From Pirellula sp. (GTDB lineage: Bacteria > Planctomycetota > Planctomycetia > Pirellulales > Pirellulaceae): 32,544 nucleotides of DNA. Positions 2,833 through 29,550 of the stretch are shown piece by piece (the first letter of the stretch is position 1; each line of letters opens with the position of its first letter). Under the pieces are notes generated by a model, which made no database searches, was not told where the DNA came from, and saw nothing but the letters and a program-made list of their open reading frames with translations. The translations under genes and the position numbers were made by a program. Location: contig JALOQS010000026.1 in the NCBI GenBank assembly GCA_025459355.1, positions 1 to 32,544 of the forward strand, given 5' to 3'.

Positions 2833-3749
2833 GCTCTTGGGGCAACGCATTCGAGTTGCTAGGTGCAACAGCGATTGCTTCTGCGTTGGGTTCGTTGCAC
2901 TGCGTTGGGATGTGTGGTCCGTTTGCAATCATGGCGTCTGGATTGAAGAACCCTGACGGGCAAGCTGATCTCAAAGTAAAGATCAATGCTATTCAGCAGA
3001 TGGCCGCGTACCATATCGGTCGGCTCACGACCTATTTGATGATGGGATTGGCGGTTGGTTTCTTGGCGAGTTCGCTAGGACGGTGGGATTGGTTTCAATC
3101 GATTGGTGTATGGGCTGGTATAGTTCTTATTGGCATGGGCGTTTGGAGATTGTTGATCGCATTGTCACCTGATGGATTTTTGATTTCCGGTAGCACGGCT
3201 AAGCACGGAAAATGGGTGCAAGCGTGGAGTATGCAATTGGCGCGATTTCGTCATTTGTTGCCACGGCAGACACGTTGGCAAAACGCTTTCGGTTGGGGTT
3301 TAACGACGACTTTGCTTCCGTGTGGTTGGTTATATGTTTTTGTCGTCACCGCAGCTGCGTCGACTTCAACCGCAATGGCGATGGCCACCATGATCGCATT
3401 TTGGATCGGAACATTACCTTTGTTATCGATTTCGGTTTGGGGGTGGCGATTCATGGGAGATCGTTGGCGAGGAGCTACGGGTGTGGTGTCGTCGCTGTGT
3501 GTGCTAACGATGGGAGTTTATCTCATGGTTGCGCGCTCCACAGTTGAGTTACCGATACCAGCCTCGCTGCTCAATCAAGCGTCTGCGACCGAGCAGACTG
3601 AATCGGAGATGCATGCAACAAGTTCAGTCGAGTTTGCTGGCTCTGAAATTGGCTCTGAAACAGGTATTGAGCGACTCAATCGACTTCGAACGCTTCTCAA
3701 TGCAGGGTTGCCATGTTGCCAAGCCGATACGAATGACGGAGGCAACTGA
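2829..3749 (+). CDS. Sulfite exporter TauE/SafE / DsbD_2-type transmembrane protein of cbb3 operons
   Basis: ASALGSLHCVGMCGPFAIMASG is typical of DsbD_2/UreH-like membrane proteins; multiple TM helices. ATG at 2829 overlaps the fixH TGA (ATGA); the tracked start at 2751 is too long. Confidence 0.85.
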   Translation: MSSWGNAFELLGATAIASALGSLHCVGMCGPFAIMASGLKNPDGQADLKVKINAIQQMAAYHIGRLTTYLMMGLAVGFLASSLGRWDWFQSIGVWAGIVLIGMGVWRLLIALSPDGFLISGSTAKHGKWVQAWSMQLARFRHLLPRQTRWQNAFGWGLTTTLLPCGWLYVFVVTAAASTSTAMAMATMIAFWIGTLPLLSISVWGWRFMGDRWRGATGVVSSLCVLTMGVYLMVARSTVELPIPASLLNQASATEQTESEMHATSSVEFAGSEIGSETGIERLNRLRTLLNAGLPCCQADTNDGGN

Positions 3750-3754
3750 TCACG

Positions 3755-6274
3755 ATGGCACTAGATCGCAAACTAGCTAAGAAAGAAAACTCGGTGCCGT
3801 GCGCTCACTGTGGCGCTCCTGCACGAGGGTCTTCGGGGCAAGAGCGTGCGTTCTGCTGCAATGGTTGCATGGGTGCTTATGCCTTGATCCATGAGATGGG
3901 TTTAGAAGACTACTACAAGCTCCGAGCTGATACAGGGAGTGCGTTAGGGGTTCAAGAGTCCGAGCAACGCAATGCGGTCTTGTTTGATTTGGACGCTGCG
4001 GGAGTAAAGGTCAACCACCTGCCGGGTGGACTCGATTGCGTGCGGCTGTCTGTCGAGGGGATGCACTGTGCGGCGTGTTCCTGGTTGATCGAGCGACTGC
4101 AGCCGACGATTCACGGACTTTATAGCGCGCGAGTTCGGCTTAGCGATAACTCCGTCGAATTGATTTATGATCCATTGCAAACAACGGTAGCGAGAGTCGC
4201 ATCTAGACTTTCCAAGATCGGTTATCAGCTTGCGCCATGGCAAGATGACGAAGAACAAGCTCGCGAAGTCACATTGAAGCAGCGAGAGCATTGGATTGGT
4301 TTAGCGGTCGCAGCGTTTTTGGCCGCCAATGCGATGTGGATTGGTGTCGCGCTTTATGCGGGCGAGGCGACGGGCATATCAAAAGAGAACGAGTATTTCC
4401 TCCGATGGGTAGGTGCAGTTCTGGGGCTGTTAGCCGCCATGTTTCCGGGCCAAATTTTTTTCCAAACCGCTTGGGCTGCGATTAAGTCAAAGACACCTCA
4501 CATTGATATCCCCGTTGCGATCGCGTTGCTCATTGGATCGGCGAGCGCGGTGTACGGTGCGTATACCGGGGTTGGGCATGTGTATTTTGACTCGCTAGCG
4601 TCGTTCGTACTTTTATTGCGAGTAGGTCGATATCTACAATTCCGAGCTCAATCGCGAGCGAGAGTCTCGATGACCAGGCTTTTGCGATGGCATGCGAATA
4701 TCGCCAAGAAAAAGGGACCCGATGACGTCATAACAGTTGTTCCATCGAGCCGCCTGAAACCAGGTGACGTCGCGGTGGTAGAGCCCGGAGAGATAGTTCC
4801 TGCGGATGGAGAGATACTCACGGGCAAGAGCGCGATTGACATGTCGCTGTTGACTGGTGAAACGCAGCCCGTGATGGTTGAGTCGGGTGACGTTGTCGTA
4901 GGCGGAACAACGAACTTAACATCTCGTGTTGAAATGTTGGTATCAGCGGCTGGTGACGAAAGCCGCATGGGCAAACTGATGGCGATGGTTCGAGACGCCA
5001 CCACCTACCGGACACCTTGGATCCAAGCGGCCGATAAAGTCAGTCGTTGGTTCGTGGTTATCGTGCTCGCGTTGGCGGTATTAACGTTTGCTGGGTGGAG
5101 TGTGGCAGCCAGTGTCGGGACGGCAACCGGGCATACGATTGCGTTGCTCACCATCGCTTGTCCATGTGCCTTAGCATTGGCTGCACCATTGGTCGTAACC
5201 ATATCGCTAGGGCGAGCGGCTCGTCAGCAGATTTGGGTTCGCGAGGGAGAGTGTTTAGAGAAGCTTGCCAAGCCAGGAATGTTATGGCTGGATAAGACTG
5301 GTACGATCACCATGGGGCGAATGCATGTACACCGATGGATTGGTGATGAGAAGTGGTTGCCAGCCATAGCTGCGCTTGAGCGATCAGTTTATCACCCCAT
5401 TGCATCAGCAATCGTTGACTTTTCTGAAGCTTACGAAGCGGAAGTGCATGGGGTCGATTACGGATCTGCGAATGCCTCGGAGGTTGTTCAGCAACAAGGG
5501 TTGGGGGTTCGCGGACTACTTCGAGGCGGCTCGATAGACGAAGCCATTTTATCAGTTGGCAGTGAAGCATGGATTCGAAGGCTTGGCATTCCGATCACCG
5601 AGAGCTGGCGAGTGCAGGCCATGGAGATTGTAGAAAAGGGGCAGTCGGCGATTTGGGTCGCGAGCGATGATCATGTGGTGGGGCTCTTTGCCGTCGGAGA
5701 TGCGATACGACACGATGCCGTCGACACACTACGAGCGTTGCGTGAATTAGGATGGAAGCTGGGAATATTATCGGGGGATCATCCGAAGGTTGTCGAGAAG
5801 ATTGCCGAGTCGCTGCGTAATCAAGGGGTCGAATTAGAGACCGTTTTGGGAGCACAGAACCCAGAAGATAAGCTTGCGATGGTTCGCAACAGTCGCGAGC
5901 AACTCGGTATTCAAATCGCGATGGTTGGTGACGGAGTCAACGATGCCGCGGCCTTGGCAGCGGCTGATATCGGAATTGCGGTACGCGGCAATACGGAACA
6001 ATCGTTAGCCGCTGCCCCGATTTATATCGCCAATCCGAGATTGAGTTCACTGTTGGAATTATTCTTGGCATCAAAGCGAGTTGTCCGGGCGATACGCAAT
6101 TGCTTTGTCGTTTCCTTACTCTACAACACCATCACGCTTTCGTTAGCGATTAGTGGTCTCATTCATCCACTTACCGCGGCCCTGTTTATGCCTTTGAGTG
6201 GCGTATCCGTGTTGGTGTTGGCCATGAATGCGAGAACGTTTACGAAACGCCGTGAAAAGACCAAAGGTAAGTAA
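3755..6274 (+). CDS. ccoI: Heavy-metal (copper) translocating P-type ATPase, CcoI/FixI-like
   Basis: N-terminal Cys domain (CAHCGAPA...FCCNGCMGAY), HMA motif GMHCAACS, TM CPC (TIACPCALALAAP), DKTGTIT, LTGETQPV, GDGVNDAAALAAADIGIA. Confidence 0.95.
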   Translation: MALDRKLAKKENSVPCAHCGAPARGSSGQERAFCCNGCMGAYALIHEMGLEDYYKLRADTGSALGVQESEQRNAVLFDLDAAGVKVNHLPGGLDCVRLSVEGMHCAACSWLIERLQPTIHGLYSARVRLSDNSVELIYDPLQTTVARVASRLSKIGYQLAPWQDDEEQAREVTLKQREHWIGLAVAAFLAANAMWIGVALYAGEATGISKENEYFLRWVGAVLGLLAAMFPGQIFFQTAWAAIKSKTPHIDIPVAIALLIGSASAVYGAYTGVGHVYFDSLASFVLLLRVGRYLQFRAQSRARVSMTRLLRWHANIAKKKGPDDVITVVPSSRLKPGDVAVVEPGEIVPADGEILTGKSAIDMSLLTGETQPVMVESGDVVVGGTTNLTSRVEMLVSAAGDESRMGKLMAMVRDATTYRTPWIQAADKVSRWFVVIVLALAVLTFAGWSVAASVGTATGHTIALLTIACPCALALAAPLVVTISLGRAARQQIWVREGECLEKLAKPGMLWLDKTGTITMGRMHVHRWIGDEKWLPAIAALERSVYHPIASAIVDFSEAYEAEVHGVDYGSANASEVVQQQGLGVRGLLRGGSIDEAILSVGSEAWIRRLGIPITESWRVQAMEIVEKGQSAIWVASDDHVVGLFAVGDAIRHDAVDTLRALRELGWKLGILSGDHPKVVEKIAESLRNQGVELETVLGAQNPEDKLAMVRNSREQLGIQIAMVGDGVNDAAALAAADIGIAVRGNTEQSLAAAPIYIANPRLSSLLELFLASKRVVRAIRNCFVVSLLYNTITLSLAISGLIHPLTAALFMPLSGVSVLVLAMNARTFTKRREKTKGK

Positions 6275-10063: not shown

Positions 10064-10930
10064 CTAGTTGGCGGAACTAGGTAGAGCCTCGGATGCATTT
10101 TGACCGTTTGATGACGTCGTGTGCTTGGCTCGCAAATTGAGTATTTCCACAAACAAAGAAAAGAGCATAGCGAAATATACGTAGCCTTTGCTAACGTGTG
10201 TGCCGCTACCGTCAGCAACAAGCATCGCGCCGATCATCACCAAAAATGAAACGGCTAACATTTTTACCGTAGGGTGTTTTTCGACGAAGCTAGCGACTTG
10301 ATTTGCGAACACCATCATAACCCCGACGGAGATAAGGACAGCGGTAACCATGACCCAGAGTTGGTCGGCTAGTCCCACGGCGGTGATCACAGAGTCGAGG
10401 GAGAAAACCAGATCGAGGATGGTGATCTGGACGATTACCGATGAGTAGCTTGGGCGAGCCGTAATCGTATGTTCGCTGGCTTCCCCTCCAACCATATGAT
10501 GAATTTCCTTGACGCTCTTCCATAGGAGAAAGAGACCTCCACCGATGAGAACCAGATCTTTCAGAGATAGGCCGTTGATTTCAGGGCGTTCTTGAAGCCA
10601 AGCTTTAGCTGACTCCCCTATTGGCAGACTATCTAGCATGAAGAACGGTTGGTTCATTTTGACGATTAGGAAAATGAAACCCAGCAATACCAATCGCATC
10701 CCCATCGCCATAGCCAAGCCTACCAGCCGAGCAGACTTTTGCTGATGTTTGGGAAGCTTGCCCGTTAAAACCGATAAAAAGACCAAGTTATCGATTCCCA
10801 GCACGATTTCCATGGCGGTTAGAGCCGTCAATGCGATCAGGCTGCTGGTCAGGCTGCCATCAGAGGTAATGCCGCCAGCCATAAACAATGGCTGTTGAAA
10901 AAAGGGTATAAGTGTTTCCATGAGCAGCAA
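10064..10930 (-). CDS. TerC family integral membrane protein
   Basis: TAMEIVLGIDNLVFLSVLTGKLP and ITILDLVFSLDSVITAVGLA motifs with multiple TM helices. Start may be ATG at 10921 (METLIPFF). Confidence 0.9.
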   Translation of the reverse strand: MLLMETLIPFFQQPLFMAGGITSDGSLTSSLIALTALTAMEIVLGIDNLVFLSVLTGKLPKHQQKSARLVGLAMAMGMRLVLLGFIFLIVKMNQPFFMLDSLPIGESAKAWLQERPEINGLSLKDLVLIGGGLFLLWKSVKEIHHMVGGEASEHTITARPSYSSVIVQITILDLVFSLDSVITAVGLADQLWVMVTAVLISVGVMMVFANQVASFVEKHPTVKMLAVSFLVMIGAMLVADGSGTHVSKGYVYFAMLFSLFVEILNLRAKHTTSSNGQNASEALPSSAN

Positions 10931-16309: not shown

Positions 16310-19300
16310 GCCTCACCGGTCAAGAACATCAGCAACGATATTTTCGTAGCATTGACGAGCTGCAGCAAACTCCTGAATTTCAGCAGTTTGTAACTCGTGA
16401 GTTTCCCCAAGCGGCCTCGGAGTTTCCCGAGGGTGTGTCGCGTCGACGTTGGATCCAGATGATGGGTGCATCTCTGGCGCTCGGTGGGGTCGCTGGATGC
16501 CGCTATCATCGTGAAGAGATTGGCGCGTTTGTTGTTCGTCCTGAAGGGCGAGTGCCTGGGATTCCCGAGTACTTTGCTACAAATTTCGAGTGGGCGGGTA
16601 GCGTTGTCAATGCGTTGATCGCGAACCTCGAAGGGCGTCCGCTCAAGGTCGACGGCAACCCAGACCACCCAGCTTACGCAAACTCACAGCCAAAGAACTT
16701 TACCGAGAACAAGAAGCTGCGATCCGCAGGTACGACTGCGATAACACAAGCGTCGATCCTGTCGTTGTACGACCAAGATCGCATAGCGAACCCGCTGCTG
16801 CGTGAGAAGCTTCGTTCGTCACCGAAGAAATTCAGCTCGGAAGAAGCTGCGAACAAGACAGCGGCCTGGGACGCATTCTCTCAGTTCATCGAAGATCAGA
16901 AAAAGGTCTTGGCAGGAACCCAAGGAGAAGGACTCGCGATTCTATTCGAGCCTACTCAGAGCCCTTCGTTGCGACGAGCTCTTGCGGATGCCGCCGCAAT
17001 GTATCCCAAGGCCAAACTCGTCAAGTACGAGTCGGTTTACACTGGCAAAGTTAGCAAGGCGTTGGAATCTGTCGGGGCTGCGGGCGGCTCGATCGGTTTG
17101 AACCTTGATGCGGCCAAAGTCATCGTGAGCTTGGATGCTGATTTGTTTGGGGCAGATGCCAACAGCGTCCACAATGCGAGACAATTTGCGAACCATCGCA
17201 GTCCAGATGGAGAGTGGGTCAATCGTTTGTATGTGATCGAGTCGCAGTACTCGGTGACAGGTTCAGCGGCCGACTTCCGATTGGCACTGCAATCTCGTCA
17301 AATAGCCGCATTACTCAAGAAGATTGAGTCAGCCATTGACGCTGGTACTGTCGTCGAAGACAAGATTGAGGACACGTACTACAACAAGCTTGACGATGCG
17401 GGCAAAGTGGCGCGAGTTATTGAATGTATCGCGAGCGACCTGTTGAGTCACAAGGGCGAGTCGGCCTTATGCGTTGGATCGCATCTTGATCTGAACGTTC
17501 AATTGGCAGCGCTTCGAATCAACCAAAAGCTTGGAAACCTAGGCAAGACCGTCAACGTTTATGTTGCTCCCAACGAGCTAGCAGACGTTGGCACGATGAA
17601 GCTTGATGATTTCGTCAACCAAGCCAGCTCGTTCAAGTCGGTATGGATACTGGCAAACAATCCAGTCTTTACCGTGCCTGGCGATTTGGCGTTGGCAGCA
17701 GCGATCGAGAAGATCCCGGACTCGGTTTACTTGGGCAACCATGACGACGAAACAGCTGAACTGTGCAAATGGACGGTTCCGGCTGCTCACCCCTTTGAAG
17801 TTTGGGGTGACGTTCGAAACGTTGATGGAACGTACGGTGTTGGCCAGCCTTTGATCGATCCGTTGCTAGATAGCAAGTCGCCGATCGAGTTTCTTGCGAT
17901 GCTCGCTGGGCTACCGGTGACTTCAGGGCAACAATATGTCATGGAAACGGCCAAGGCGGTGAGTGGTGGCACACTCAGCGAACGAGTTTGGAAAGAGACT
18001 CTGCATAGCGGTTTCTTGGCAGGCAGTGCTTTGATATCTTTCGCGGGAGAGTTGACCTTCACATCGGCGGCGACCGAAGGCGATGGGGTAGCAATTTCGG
18101 CAAACGAATTGCCTGACGGAGAAATTACGCTCGGTTTAGACAAAAAGCAGCTCGAAGTAGTCCTTCGTCCGAGCGATACCGTTTACGACGGACGATTGGC
18201 TAACAATGGATGGTTGCAAGAGTGTCCACAACCGATCACCAAGCTGACTTGGGATAACGCAGCGATTTGCAGTATCGGCACGGCTCGGGAACTGGGCTTG
18301 AAGCAAGGCGAATTGGCGAGTTTGCGAGTTGGCGAATCCAATGTTTTGCTCCCCGTGTTCGTGGTTCCTGGGCATGCAGAAGGATCGTTTACGGTCAATC
18401 TTGGTTACGGTCGTGCCAAGGGCAAGGCTGGTATCAACGGTAGTGAGGTTGGAACCAATCTGTCGTCCTTCCGAAGATGGAACCAAGCGTCGGTTTACAC
18501 CAGCGTTGAAGTCAAGAACACGACAACGCCATATCCTCTCGCGACCACTCAAGATCACTTCGCAATTGAAGACGAAGGTGGTATGCGTGAGAACGCCAAG
18601 CGTGCTCCAGCGTTGATCCGCGAGGGAACGTTTGATGAATTCAAGACGAATTCGAATTTCGCGTTCGAAACCGTTGAGCACCATTTCGAGAACAAATCGT
18701 TGTGGGAAGAGCCAAAGGTTGACTTGAACCACAAGTGGGGCATGGCGATCGACCTCAACAAATGCATTGGTTGCAATGCGTGTGTGGTCGCATGTCAGTC
18801 GGAGAATAACGTACCGATCGTCGGCAAAGAGCAAGTTCGTAAGGGTCGTGAGATGCACTGGTTGCGACTCGACCGGTATTTCACCTGCGATATGGAAGCG
18901 ACTCAAGCCAAGGGTTCGTTCAAAGATCCGGTTGATCCTACCATTGTGACGCAACCAATGATGTGCTCGCACTGCGAGACCGCACCGTGCGAACAAGTTT
19001 GCCCAGTTGCTGCGACAGTTCATACCGAAGAAGGCATCAACGCGATGGCCTACAACCGCTGCATCGGGACCCGCTATTGCGGTAACAACTGCCCGACCAA
19101 AGTGCGACGCTTTAACTACTTCAGCTATGTTGAGCAATATGGTTACAACTACGGTTGGACCGATAACCGAGAAAAGGCATCTGCCAAGTTGCAGTCTCTG
19201 GTTCTCAACCCCGAAGTAACCGTTCGTGGTCGTGGTGTCATGGAAAAATGCACCTATTGCATTCAGCGAGTGCAAAACGGAAAGATTCATGCCAAGACCA

Positions 19301-21112: not shown

Positions 21113-22555
21113 ATGAGTGATCACAAGCCGAAGAACACCACCGGGACGAAAGCTCCCAAGGCGTATGGCTGGATGGCTGAATATCCAGATGAGCACAAGC
21201 TGTTAGAAGCAGCCCGCAAGGTACGCGATTCGGGTTACACCGACACCGACGCCTTTACTCCGTTCCCGGTTCACGGGATCGACGAAGCGTTGGGGATCAA
21301 GCCAACCGTTCTTCCATTCATTGTTTTGTGCTGCGGATTTACCGGGCTCTGCTTGGCAGTCACCATGCAGTACTGGATGAATGGAGTGGATTACATGTAC
21401 ATCATTTCGGGAAAGCCGATGGGGATAACTCCAGCATCGGTACCCGTATCCTTTGAAATGACGATTTTGTTCTCCGCATTCTCGACCTTCTTAGGCATGA
21501 TTGCGTTGAACAAGCTACCTCGCTTTAGCAATCCTGTTTTCACGAATCCTCGATTTGACCGAGCGACGGACGACAAGTTTTTCTTGTACGTCAGTGCGTC
21601 GGACAAGTATTACAACCGTGATTCGGTGAAAGAATTACTCGGCGGAACATCACCCGATGTTTTGGACGAAGTTGTGGAAGATGGGTCACCGGCTGAGCTG
21701 CCAAAGTTTGTTTGGTTGGGTGCTTTGCTCGTCGTTCTCACTGGGCTTATCCCATTGATGATCGTGTTGAACATTCGCGAGAGTTTCAGTGAAAAGCCCA
21801 GGTTCCACGTGTTCCTAGACATGGACTTTCAACCGAAGAAAAAAGCTGATCAGCAGACAACCGTTTTTGCTGACGGCAGAACGATGCGTCCTCAAGTTGC
21901 CGGCACTGTTGGTCGAGGCCAGCTAGAAGAGCAAGATGCGTTTTATCTGGGATATGATCCAAACGATTTGGCAGCGACGGTCAAAATGACACCGACCAGA
22001 TTAGTGTCGTTGCAGGATGGAGCAGCACAGCCACCAGCAGACGCGCCAGCGACGCAGCCACCTGCCGCGACCGACTCTGCTGCAGCACCTGCTACTGCAC
22101 CGACTGCGAATGCTACACAGCCGCCTGCTGCAGCACCGATGCCTGCGGCAGAAGCTCCAGAAAAGCCGTGGCTCACCGAGTTACCGATTGAGGCTAATGA
22201 AGCGAACATGAAGCTCGGTGAACTCAAGTTCCAGATTTATTGCTCCGCGTGCCACGGTTATGCTGGGAACGGAGACGGTTTGGTGCACAAGCGAGCAGAC
22301 GCGTTGGCACAGGGAACATGGTTACCACCGACATCTTTCCACATCGACCGAGTCAAAGCACAGTCGGTCGGAAAGATTTTCAATACGATTTCCAAGGGGC
22401 AAGGAAAGATGGCTGGTTATGCCAACGCACTTACTCCCAAGGAACGCTGGGCAATTGTGTTGTATGTTCGTGCGTTACAGCGTTCACGAGATGCAAAGCT
22501 TGACGACATACCAGTCGATAAGCGATCCAGTTTGGAAGAGGCGGGAAGCAAGTAA
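21113..22555 (+). CDS. ActD-ActE fusion: DUF3341 membrane domain, Ala/Pro linker, mono-heme cytochrome c
   Basis: N-terminal DUF3341-like region (YGWMAEYPDEHKLLEAARKVRDSGYTDTDAFTPFPVHGIDEALGIK), three TM segments, A/P/T-rich linker, then a cytochrome c domain with CSACHGYAGNGDG. Confidence 0.92.
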   Translation: MSDHKPKNTTGTKAPKAYGWMAEYPDEHKLLEAARKVRDSGYTDTDAFTPFPVHGIDEALGIKPTVLPFIVLCCGFTGLCLAVTMQYWMNGVDYMYIISGKPMGITPASVPVSFEMTILFSAFSTFLGMIALNKLPRFSNPVFTNPRFDRATDDKFFLYVSASDKYYNRDSVKELLGGTSPDVLDEVVEDGSPAELPKFVWLGALLVVLTGLIPLMIVLNIRESFSEKPRFHVFLDMDFQPKKKADQQTTVFADGRTMRPQVAGTVGRGQLEEQDAFYLGYDPNDLAATVKMTPTRLVSLQDGAAQPPADAPATQPPAATDSAAAPATAPTANATQPPAAAPMPAAEAPEKPWLTELPIEANEANMKLGELKFQIYCSACHGYAGNGDGLVHKRADALAQGTWLPPTSFHIDRVKAQSVGKIFNTISKGQGKMAGYANALTPKERWAIVLYVRALQRSRDAKLDDIPVDKRSSLEEAGSK

Positions 22556-24211: not shown

Positions 24212-24877
24212 ATGACCACTTCACGACTCTCACTCGCACGAAATGCAGGCATTACGCTAGCTGCGTTGGTAATTTCCAGCGTGTCGTGCGTTGTTGGAGT
24301 CGCCAGAGACGGTGGAATTCCCGACAGAAGAATTGGTATTGGGGTCGACGAGAAGCTCGACACGAACATCCCGCTGGACGTAACGTTTAGCGACGATCGT
24401 GGCCGGTTGGTTAATTTTGCGAAATTATTGGAGCAGAAAAAGCCAATCCTTTTAACTCTAAACTACAGCAATTGCCCTGGTCTTTGCGTAGCCCAATTGA
24501 ATGGGCTAGTAAAGGGGATCAATCAAGTCAAAAGCTTGAAGCTGGGAACCGATTTCTACATGGTTTCGTTGAGCATTGACCCCCGGGACAACGTTAAAAA
24601 GGCTGCCGACACCAAAGTCCGTTATGCAGGGGATTTGGAGGATCCACACGCCGTCGACGGTTGGACGTTTTTGACCGGATCTGAGAAAGACATCGTGACC
24701 ATTGCCAAGGCAGTGGGGTTTAACTACACCTATGATGCCAAGCACGATCAGTACAACCACGCCGCCGCAGCGATTTTCATTTCTCCGAAGGGTCGAATCA
24801 CTCGCTATCTTTACGAGGTCGGGTTTTTCGGCGACACGTTGAAAATGGCTTTGAATGGCTTTGGTCGAGGCGGGTGA
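24212..24877 (+). CDS. SCO1/SenC family copper chaperone, C-terminus truncated by frameshift
   Basis: Signal-like N-terminus, thioredoxin fold with NYSNCPGLCVAQ, SLSIDPRDN, distal His in YNHAAAAIFISPKGRITRYLYEVGF. Frame ends at GRGG* just after a 10-bp duplication. Confidence 0.88.
   Translation: MTTSRLSLARNAGITLAALVISSVSCVVGVARDGGIPDRRIGIGVDEKLDTNIPLDVTFSDDRGRLVNFAKLLEQKKPILLTLNYSNCPGLCVAQLNGLVKGINQVKSLKLGTDFYMVSLSIDPRDNVKKAADTKVRYAGDLEDPHAVDGWTFLTGSEKDIVTIAKAVGFNYTYDAKHDQYNHAAAAIFISPKGRITRYLYEVGFFGDTLKMALNGFGRGG
24844..24863. repeat. Perfect 10-bp tandem duplication AATGGCTTTG x2
   Basis: 24844-24853 and 24854-24863 are identical; removing one copy joins the SCO1 frame to the 24855 ORF frame. 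Confidence 0.95.
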
Positions 24878-25112
24878 GGGCAAGATCGGCAGCACTTTGG
24901 ATGCATTCGTTTTGTGGTGTTCTCACTACGACGCGAATGAGAACCGATACTCAACCAGTGCGAAGACCCTACTATCCGTCTTTGCTGGAATTTTTTTGAC
25001 AATGGGGTTAACTGCGTTACTTCCTTTTTGGCTTTCCGGTCGCAAAGGAAAGATGCTGGCGAGAGCAAAATCTTCCCAGCCCGAGACAATTAGTCACGCA
25101 TCCCCGGTATAG
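24864..25112 (+). pseudogene. Frameshift-separated C-terminal part of SCO1 (membrane anchor)
   Basis: The ORF tracked as 24855..25112 (MALVEAGEGKIGSTLDAFVLWCSHYDANENRYS...LLSVFAGIFLTMGLTALLPFWLSGRKGK) matches the usual C-terminal extension and TM of SCO proteins from similar operons. Confidence 0.8.
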
Positions 25113-25173: not shown

Positions 25174-26154
25174 ATGAATATGTCGATTTTAGCAGATATA
25201 CAGGAAGGCTTTTGGTTCCCCAAGGCAGCCTCAAGTTTTGCGGACCGAGTAGACTTTCTCTACTTCGCGATCCTCTGGATTTGCGTGATTTTCTTCGTAC
25301 CGATCGTCGCAGCGATGATCTACTTTACGTACAAGTACCGGCAACGCCCGGGTTATCGTGGAAGCACCGAGGCTCTTCACAACAACACGATAGAAGTGAC
25401 TTGGACGGTGGTTCCTACGCTGATCGTCGTCTGGATTTTCTGGGAAGGGGCGGCTGGGTACCTCGAAATGTCCCGTGTTCCGGATGACACACTCGATATC
25501 AACGTTTACGCCCAAAAGTGGAACTGGAGCTTTAAGTACAAGGAAAACGGCGGCGAGAGCAACATTCTCTACGTCCCAGTGAATCAGAACATTAAGCTGA
25601 TCATGCAATCGAAGGACGTTTTGCACAGCTTCTTCGTTCCGGCATTCCGCGCTAAGCGAGACGTTGTGCCTGGTCGCTACACATACATGTGGTTTCGGCC
25701 TACAGTTGAGGGCGTATATGACTTGTTTTGCACCGAGTATTGCGGTGACAGTCACAGCAATATGATCACCAAGGTGCACGTTGTGTCTGAGGAAAAATAC
25801 AAAGCTCAATTGGCCGAAATGGTCAAGGAGCCTGAGGACATCATCGAGCGAGGCAAGTGGTTCTACCAACGCAAGGCTTGCATGTCGTGCCACTACGCTG
25901 GCGAAATCGGTGCAAAGGGTCCTGGTCCGAACTACAATGGTTCGTGGGGCAAGCCTGTTAAGTTGTCGGATGGCACAGAGGTTATATTCGACGAGCAATA
26001 CGTTTTGAACTCGATTCGCAATCCCGGATCACAGAAGCGTGCTGGGTACGAAAATGCGTCAGCGATGCCTGCTTACAGCAAGAGCGACCTCAAAGATGAG
26101 CAGGTTGACGCCATCATTGCGTTCATCCAATCCTTGAAGGACGCGAAGCCTTAA
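25174..26154 (+). CDS. coxB: Cytochrome c oxidase subunit II with C-terminal cytochrome c domain (caa3-type)
   Basis: Two N-terminal TMs, CuA motif FCTEYCGDSHSNM, C-terminal heme motif CMSCH. Confidence 0.95.
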   Translation: MNMSILADIQEGFWFPKAASSFADRVDFLYFAILWICVIFFVPIVAAMIYFTYKYRQRPGYRGSTEALHNNTIEVTWTVVPTLIVVWIFWEGAAGYLEMSRVPDDTLDINVYAQKWNWSFKYKENGGESNILYVPVNQNIKLIMQSKDVLHSFFVPAFRAKRDVVPGRYTYMWFRPTVEGVYDLFCTEYCGDSHSNMITKVHVVSEEKYKAQLAEMVKEPEDIIERGKWFYQRKACMSCHYAGEIGAKGPGPNYNGSWGKPVKLSDGTEVIFDEQYVLNSIRNPGSQKRAGYENASAMPAYSKSDLKDEQVDAIIAFIQSLKDAKP

Positions 26155-26216
26155 AGGTCCACAACAAGTAACGAGAATCAATTGAGGAATTACTTCTTCA
26201 TCCAAGGAATAAAGAA

Positions 26217-27890
26217 ATGAGTGCGGTTACCAGTCCTATCACTGCGCCGGTAACAACCGAAGAGAAAGTCGAGCATCACTATCTCAACCATTCTTCTGGT
26301 TTTTTGAGCTGGGCGCTGACATTAGATCACAAGCGGATCGGCATGATGTATCTTGCCGGTATCTTGTTTGCTTTCTTCTTGGGGGGCGTGTTCGCATTGG
26401 CGATCCGCTTCCACTTGTGGAATCCGAACAAAGATCCTGATTTAGCGTTGTTCACCAACCAGACGTACAACCGTATTTTTACGTTGCACGGCGCGATCAT
26501 GGTTTTCCTGTTCATCATTCCCAGTGTTCCAGCAGCTTTAGGTAATTTCCTGCTGCCCATCATGCTGGGGACCAAGGACGTAGCCTTTCCACGGTTGAAC
26601 TTGTCGAGCTTCTACCTCTGGGTGATTGGCTTTATTTTCTTCTCTTTCACGCTAGCTACGTCCGGCATTGATACTGGATGGACGTTTTACACGCCCTATA
26701 GTATTGAAACGACTTCCTCGGTGACACCAGCCACATTCGGCGTGTTCATTCTCGGCTTTAGTTCGATCTTCACCGGGTTGAACTTCATCGTGACCATTAA
26801 CACCATGCGTCCACCCGGGATGACTTGGTTTAGAATGCCGTTGTTCCTCTGGGCAGTGTACGCGACATCGATCATTCAGGTCTTGGCCACTCCAGTACTC
26901 GGTATTACGGTGCTATTGTTGGCGATGGAACGACTGATCGGGATCGGAATTTTCGATCCAGCCCTCAACGGTGACCCCGTCACGTTCCAACACTTTTTCT
27001 GGTTCTACTCGCACCCTGCTGTTTACATCATGATCCTCCCTGCAATGGGTATCATCAGTGAACTCATGAGCGTGCACAGTCACAAGGGAATCTTCGGTTA
27101 TCGAATGATCGCCTACAGCTCGATCGCGATTGCCCTGTTCGGGTTCTTGGTATGGGGACACCACATGTTCACCGCCGGAATGTCGGACATCACCACAATC
27201 GTGTTCAGTGCGTTGACCTTTACGGTGTCGATCCCGTCAGCCATCAAGGTGTTCAACTGGGTGGGAACCATGTATCAAGGCACCGTCGCGATCAACACTC
27301 CGATGGTATACGCCTTGTCCTTCCTGTTCTTGTTCACTATCGGTGGTTTGACTGGTCTGTTCCTAGGTGCTCTTTCGGTCGACATGCACCTGCATGATAC
27401 GTACTTCGTTGTCGCACACTTCCACTACGTTATGATGGGTGGAACATTGGTGGCCTTCGTCGGTGGCTTGTTCCACTGGTGGCCTAAGATGACTGGCAAG
27501 ATGTTCAATGATGCGGCTGGTATTCTGTCCGGGGTCATCGTGTTCATCGGCTTTAACCTCACCTTCTTGCCTCAGTTCGTTCTCGGCACGCGAGGCATGC
27601 CTCGTCGGTATGCTTCGTACGTGGAAGAGTTCCAAGAGTTGCACAGGCTGTCCACCATCGGAGCGGCAACGCTCGGAGTTGGGTTGTTGGTTGCTGGAAT
27701 CGTATTGCTTCACTCACTGTTCTATGGAAAGAAAGCACCAAAGAACCCTTGGGGTGGAGCAACATTGGAATGGGAATGCTCATCACCGCCACCGCACGAT
27801 AACTTCAGCTCTCCGCCGAGTGTGGGAGATCCGTACGATTTCAGTAAGATTGAGTACGACGGTAAGTCTGGCGGTTACGTCAAGAAATAG
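26217..27890 (+). CDS. coxA: Cytochrome c oxidase subunit I (heme-copper oxidase, A-type)
   Basis: [72 protein letters not shown]. Confidence 0.97.
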
Positions 27891-27909
27891 GTATCCTAAC
27901 AACACAACT

Positions 27910-27932
27910 GCCGCCCCAATTTTTGGGGCGGC
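27910..27932. terminator. Perfect hairpin GCCGCCCCAA-TTT-TTGGGGCGGC between coxA and coxC; possible attenuator or terminator
   Basis: 10-bp GC-rich perfect stem, 3-nt loop, followed by TTTCCCCC, 20 nt after the coxA stop. Confidence 0.6.
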
Positions 27933-27956
27933 TTTCCCCCATTTATTAGCTCTGAT

Positions 27957-29054
27957 ATGACAACAGAAGCCGCAGTACATACCGACAATCATGACCATGG
28001 ACACCATGATCACCCTGCATGGTTGGCGCACCATTTCGATGATGCTCAGCAGCAGTTTGATGCTGGTAAATTTGGCATGTGGATGTTTTTGGTGACGGAA
28101 GTCCTTTTCTTTTCAGGGATGTTCTGCGCTTATGTTCTATTCCGAAACCGGAATCCGGAAGTTTTTGAATACTGCAGTTCGTTCTTGAACACGAAGCTCG
28201 GGGCAATCAATACCGGCGTTTTGTTGTTCAGCTCGCTCACGATGGCTTGGGCTGTGAGGGCGGCTCAACTCAAACAGCACACGTTGCTGGTAGGGATGCT
28301 GGGAGCGACACTCGGTTGCGCAGCGGTCTTTTTGGGTGTGAAAGCGGTGGAGTATACCCACAAGTGGGAGCTAGGTCTTTTGCCTGGTAAGCTCTACGTG
28401 GCCCAAGTGGAGAATGCGGTTCACGCGGATCATCACTACTTGAGAAATGTTCTTATCGTTCCTTTGATCTACACAGTCATTGGGTTGCTTTATTACCTTT
28501 ACTCAATCGTGATTTCGAGTCGTCTTCATCGACAGATTGCCGGTCCAGTATTTGTTTCAGGCGTTTGTTTCTTTGCTGGTGTATTGTTGGGACAGTACCT
28601 GGAGAGTGGTGATCACGGCGATCATGCGGCGCATGCATCCCATTCGACGTCTCACGGAGACGAGGCTGGCCATGATGGGGCTGCTTCCTCGCATTCGGGC
28701 ACTGACGTAGCAACAGCTAATGCCGCTACGCCGCCATTGACACTCGTTTCTGATTCCTCAAGACTACTCAACCCAGATGTTTTCGTTTCGCCAGTCGAGC
28801 AAGAGATTCCTCGAAGTGACGTCAACAACCAGGGTATGGCAGGTTTGTTTTTCAGTATTTATTACTGCATGACAGGTGTCCACGCCGTGCACATCATCGG
28901 CGGGATGGTGGTCATCATTTGGTTGATTGTGAAAGCTGCCCGACACGAGTTCCATTCCCAGTATTTTGGACCTGTGGACAACGTCGGCCTTTACTGGCAC
29001 TTGGTAGACTTTATTTGGATTTATTTGTTCCCGCTTTTGTACCTCATCACCTAG
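27957..29054 (+). CDS. coxC: Cytochrome c oxidase subunit III with His-rich N-terminus and His-rich internal insertion
   Basis: COX3 features: GKFGMWMFLVTEVLFFSGMFCAYVLFR, and C-terminal YYCMTGVHAVHIIGGMVVI...YFGPVDNVGLYWHLVDFIWIYLFPLLYL. Confidence 0.94.
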   Translation: MTTEAAVHTDNHDHGHHDHPAWLAHHFDDAQQQFDAGKFGMWMFLVTEVLFFSGMFCAYVLFRNRNPEVFEYCSSFLNTKLGAINTGVLLFSSLTMAWAVRAAQLKQHTLLVGMLGATLGCAAVFLGVKAVEYTHKWELGLLPGKLYVAQVENAVHADHHYLRNVLIVPLIYTVIGLLYYLYSIVISSRLHRQIAGPVFVSGVCFFAGVLLGQYLESGDHGDHAAHASHSTSHGDEAGHDGAASSHSGTDVATANAATPPLTLVSDSSRLLNPDVFVSPVEQEIPRSDVNNQGMAGLFFSIYYCMTGVHAVHIIGGMVVIIWLIVKAARHEFHSQYFGPVDNVGLYWHLVDFIWIYLFPLLYLIT

Positions 29055-29121
29055 GGTATGATCGATCGAGAGCAGTAGTCACCCTTTCACTATCTTCAGC
29101 GAACACACTATAGAATCGATA

Positions 29122-29550
29122 ATGGCTAATTCACACAGTTCTACAGCTGACGCTCACGGGCATGCCGGAGACGCACATGGTCATGGCGATGGCGAATTTG
29201 CGCACCCAGCTCCGATTTGGATGCTGCTGGCAGTGTTTTTCGCACTGTTGGTTTTGACCTTCCTGACCGTATTCCAAGCCCGTTTCGATTTGGGTGATTT
29301 GGAAATCGTGTTGACATTGTTCATTGCGACGGTCAAAGCAGGTCTCGTTATCGCCTTCTTTATGCACTTGCTTTGGGATAAGCCTCTCAACGCCATTGTT
29401 ATTTTGAGCAGCTTGATTTTCGTATCGTTGTTCCTCGGTTTCTGTTTGATGGACGCCAAAGGTTATCGGAATAATCTGATCATGGATCCGAACGGTGACC
29501 TGCTTGAGAAATCGAAGCCAGCGTCACAGCTCGTGAAGACCAGCAACTAA
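29122..29550 (+). CDS. Cytochrome c oxidase subunit IV (prokaryotic, CoxD-like) with His-rich N-terminus
   Basis: Three TM helices with VKAGLVIAFFMHLLWDKPLNAIVILSS, typical of prokaryotic COX4; directly downstream of coxC. Confidence 0.9.
   Translation: MANSHSSTADAHGHAGDAHGHGDGEFAHPAPIWMLLAVFFALLVLTFLTVFQARFDLGDLEIVLTLFIATVKAGLVIAFFMHLLWDKPLNAIVILSSLIFVSLFLGFCLMDAKGYRNNLIMDPNGDLLEKSKPASQLVKTSN

Follow-up and report, generated by a model that had tools for sequence, protein, structure and literature searches.

A perfect 10-bp tandem duplication splitting sco in a draft Pirellula genome is probably an assembly error

Results

A tandem duplication divides sco into two frames

The window analyzed here, a stretch of 32,544 nt, belongs to a Pirellula draft genome that was assembled from environmental DNA (metagenome-assembled, 459 contigs, 76.5% complete). 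It contains a sco gene that lies between two groups of respiratory genes. On the 5' side is an alternative complex III operon, with a multihaem cytochrome c, an Fe-S/molybdopterin-type subunit, NrfD and ActD. On the 3' side are the genes for subunits II, I, III and IV of a caa3-type oxidase (COX2, COX1, COX3 and COX4_pro matches at 25174-29550), which links sco to a CuA oxidase. Two of these neighbors have further features. ActD (21113-22555) has a C-terminal cytochrome c domain fused through a Pro/Ala-rich linker, with ActD at residues 19-181 and the cytochrome at residues 365-452. Cytochrome oxidase subunit III (27957-29054) has a long His-rich insertion at about residues 210-290, ahead of the last COX3-matching segment (296-363). 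The features at sco itself are as follows:

24212..24877, + strand: Sco (SCO1/SenC) upstream frame as assembled, 221 aa (ORF, translation, PF02630, PDB Sco matches, hydrophobicity)
24844..24863, + strand: perfect 2 x 10 bp tandem duplication of AATGGCTTTG, frame-shifting (repeat search, TRF; single copy in relatives aligned across the junction)
24855..25112, + strand: downstream frame, 85 aa, with the conserved Sco C-terminal tail and membrane helix (ORF, translation, hydrophobicity, tail matches in relatives)

The decamer AATGGCTTTG occurs twice back to back, at 24844-24853 and 24854-24863, and nowhere else in the window. TRF reported the array with a period of 10, 2.0 copies and 100% match. 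A chance origin of the repeat was ruled out, since dinucleotide shuffles gave a mean of 0.06 single matches to AATGGCTTTG and never two, and since only about 0.03-0.05 perfect two-copy repeats with a period of at least 10 are expected per window. The initial annotation had described a perfect 10-bp tandem duplication splitting SCO1 at this position, and the repeat search, TRF and the open reading frames all confirm it.

The upstream frame ends in ...DTLKMALNGFGRGG*, that is, GFGRGG followed by a stop. The downstream frame begins MALVEAGEGKIGSTLDAFVLWCSHYDANENRYS..., and its start ATG lies inside the second copy of AATGGCTTTG. The upstream frame matched SCO1-SenC PF02630 with an E value of 4.5e-9 and 36.8 bits (cut-off 22.8). 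Its CPGLC motif (CxxxC) and the His of YNHAAAA correspond in alignment to the Cys pair and His of 3me7 and to the same residues in all the relatives shown, so the truncated form does retain its copper ligands, as had been proposed. The further proposal that it loses its membrane anchor was right for the C-terminal helix, the one hydrophobic 19-mer of the downstream frame (residues 38-56), but not for the N-terminal hydrophobic segment (residues 13-31), which is kept in the upstream frame. The gene thus resembles the planctomycete Sco form that has a C-terminal helix (PF02630, CuA assembly) in its CxxxC, its distal His, its fold region (59-195) and its position next to oxidase subunit II. It differs from that form in that, as assembled, the tail and helix are in a different frame from Sco. 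A tail and helix in the same frame are a trait of the genus form and do not define the Sco family overall.

The split is private to this assembly

With the upstream piece as the query, 42 of 60 genomes gave a match, the best being in the same genus. In each same-genus genome aligned across the junction, the AATGGCTTTG unit is present as a single copy, and the relatives' protein continues KMALVEAGEGKIGS...DAFVLWC.HYDANENRYS..., or a close variant of this, into the helix. The tail was found in 21 of the 26 other same-genus genomes, and in all 21 it forms one unbroken frame of 282-362 aa with Sco. Because same-genus tails are always in one frame with Sco, the split state is private to this assembly among the genomes searched. 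This confirms that the frame is broken relative to all relatives, and the outcome in which relatives would conserve two copies and the truncated protein did not materialize. A scan of genome contigs gave four relatives that are uncultured Pirellula MAGs, and no second genome of this species. The downstream frame has no stop and shares 66-77% identity with the tails of closer relatives. This high identity gives no sign of decay. The initial annotation took the intact downstream frame to mean a recent event; the event is either recent or not real at all.

A second copy of the gene was also sought. No second intact sco copy was found across the draft genome, which has one unrelated Sco on another contig (C247), and the Sco C-terminal tail occurs only once in the draft.

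Similar lesions are in excess in the draft

Tandem duplications were counted in 895 kb of readable sequence sampled from the draft and in 796 kb from relatives of the same genus (five genomes, of which one is a single contig). Perfect two-copy duplications with a period of 10-60 numbered 34 in the draft and 11 in the relatives (binomial p 0.0025). A duplication was called frame-breaking when a long open frame resumes in a shifted frame right after the repeat. There were seven of these in the draft, sco and six more, and no clear case in the relatives (p ~0.012). The six others are as follows:

C9 (L060), repeat 3527-3548 in gene 3278-4923: perfect 11-bp duplication AATTTTCGTTC in cysS (cysteinyl-tRNA synthetase)
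C13 (L064), 16512-16549: 19-bp duplication in a TgpA/transglutaminase gene (family search)
C35 (L089), 1994-2015: 11-bp duplication in a 3-keto-disaccharide hydrolase/GSDH gene (family search)
C82 (L140), 526-605: 40-bp duplication in a PSCyt1/PSCyt2 gene (family search)
C56 (L110), 10185-10212: 13-bp duplication, without shared-domain confirmation
C77 (L131), 387-436: 25-bp duplication, without shared-domain confirmation

The breaking duplications differ from the in-frame ones at their junctions. A blunt junction, with no matching base past the two copies, was seen in 6 of 7 breaking duplications compared to 1 of 13 in-frame duplications (Fisher p 0.0012); in the remaining 12 in-frame duplications the match extends for one to six bases past the two copies. 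The lengths of the breaking duplications are 10, 11, 13, 19, 25 and 40 bp. A transposon target-site scar, in which tandem copies are left after excision, was considered as a source and rejected because these lengths differ between sites.

Frame breaks of all kinds were counted by protein homology, aligning the relatives' proteins to the draft and using the reverse comparison as the control. This count is independent of the repeat count. Six distinct breaks were found in 182 kb of matched sequence in the draft and no real one in 209 kb of the relatives (p 0.010). These six are what was left of ten flagged places once duplicates had been combined and one place (L091), an antisense frame, had been removed; the two flags in the control were both put down to antisense frames. 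Within the window, sco was the only gene flagged. Two of the six breaks, those in sco and in the PSCyt gene, are perfect duplications, while the others, in L143 near 4490, L063 near 2987, L071 near 403-478 and L154 near 9030, resemble small deletions or single-base shifts. From the appearance of their sequences, without a family search, these four broken genes look kinase, DUF1501-like, PSCyt2-like and oxidoreductase-like. In the protein-kinase gene, the copies of a short repeat seem to have been collapsed. Either the draft or the lineage is generally error-rich; an error-rich draft is the simpler reading.

One duplication lies in the only cysS of the draft

In the C9 gene, TIGR00435 positions 2-44 and 39-465 fall in two frames. 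This is the sole gene of the draft near the TIGR00435 cut-off, and no other gene passes it in a draft of this completeness. The same type of lesion as in sco is thus present in an indispensable single-copy gene. Cysteinyl-tRNA synthetase is essential, and a living cell cannot do without it. Therefore, an error is the best reading of at least the cysS duplication, assuming that no second cysS lies in the ~23% of the genome that is missing. The split cysS is also a useful marker of assembly quality.

Other core genes of the draft were inspected. The ileS gene and one dnaE-type gene are intact, so errors in the draft are not everywhere. When rpoB, rpoC and alaS were sought, none of them gave a match in this incomplete draft.

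Discussion

The initial annotation offered three explanations for the duplication in sco: an assembly error, a recent slippage mutation and a reversible switch. Of these, the assembly error is the best supported, through the genome-wide excess of lesions and cysS, and the reversible switch is unsupported. We consider the second AATGGCTTTG copy to be, most likely, an assembly error that is absent from the organism, because the draft has unusually many such breaks and one of them is in its only cysS. Counting against this is that the numbers of frame-breaking sites, seven among the duplications and six by homology, are small.

Such an error could arise where the ends of two contigs or reads share a short overlap: if they were abutted and the overlap was kept twice, a perfect, blunt tandem duplication would result. 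Blunt junctions and lengths of 10-40 bp fit an uncollapsed contig overlap. They are not what would be expected from slippage between pre-existing repeats, or, given the varying lengths, from a target-site duplication of fixed length. We infer this assembler step, as well as a common origin of the sco site with the other breaks. A literature search for an artefact of this specific uncollapsed-overlap type found no direct description. In isolate genomes, many bacterial pseudogenes have been traced to assembly errors, in numbers that vary with the assembler and the coverage (PMC11017572). Those spurious pseudogenes are like the present case in that a single frame-shifting lesion lies in an otherwise conserved gene and in that many occur per low-quality draft. 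They are unlike it in that the study did not include metagenome-assembled genomes, and the assembler step is one that we infer here.

The main alternative is a genuine, very recent 10-bp duplication that leaves Sco truncated and either inactive or altered, with the downstream frame not yet decayed. The perfect repeat and the well-kept, stop-free downstream frame are both as expected from such an event, short duplications do arise in real genomes, and a single genuine sco mutation is fully compatible with the sequence. However, similar lesions are in excess in this draft, its only cysS included, and the junction lacks the base matching that would favor slippage. We therefore regard a real mutation as unlikely, though it is the strongest competitor of the assembly error.

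A further reading takes the two-copy allele as genuine and as segregating in the natural population alongside an allele with one copy, so that some cells would have anchored Sco and others truncated Sco. This seems very improbable to us. If it were true, the dense frame-breaking duplications would mark a lineage in which short tandem duplications arise unusually often.

Neither a phase switch nor a functional split protein has support. In a phase switch, reversible change between two copies and one copy would toggle Sco between the truncated and anchored forms. Slippage can in principle shorten tandem direct repeats, and sco shares with slipped-strand phase variation a frame-shifting tandem repeat within a coding sequence. 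However, the array has just two copies of a 10-bp unit without flanking matching bases, it is not conserved (no relative has a repeat here, and all 21 frames are unbroken), the assembly shows no mixed or second allele, and Sco belongs to an oxidase operon and is not a surface antigen, the gene class being different. The switch is thus extremely improbable. Equally hard to credit is a split or recoded protein, in which the 85-aa frame would be translated by starting at the ATG at 24855 or through a +1 frameshift near GGG-TGA to give a soluble Sco and a membrane peptide: the ATG in the second copy is in the right frame and the two frames overlap by 23 bases, but no split is conserved among relatives, neither the re-initiation ATG nor the GGG-TGA site is conserved as such, in most relatives the ATG corresponds to a Met inside the unbroken gene, and there is no clear ribosome-binding site within 20 bases 5' of it.

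The probable assembly error at sco is a caution and not a discovery: a short perfect tandem duplication in a draft MAG can mimic a mutation or a switch. What marks it as a probable assembly error is the count of similar lesions within one draft and, above all, their presence in an indispensable gene. Were the duplication real after all, this Sco would be a rare example from nature of the protein without its C-terminal membrane helix. With the extra copy taken as an assembly error, the real gene would be predicted to encode a normal Sco with this helix, and the intact protein would be made together with the caa3-type cytochrome oxidase whose genes come directly after sco.
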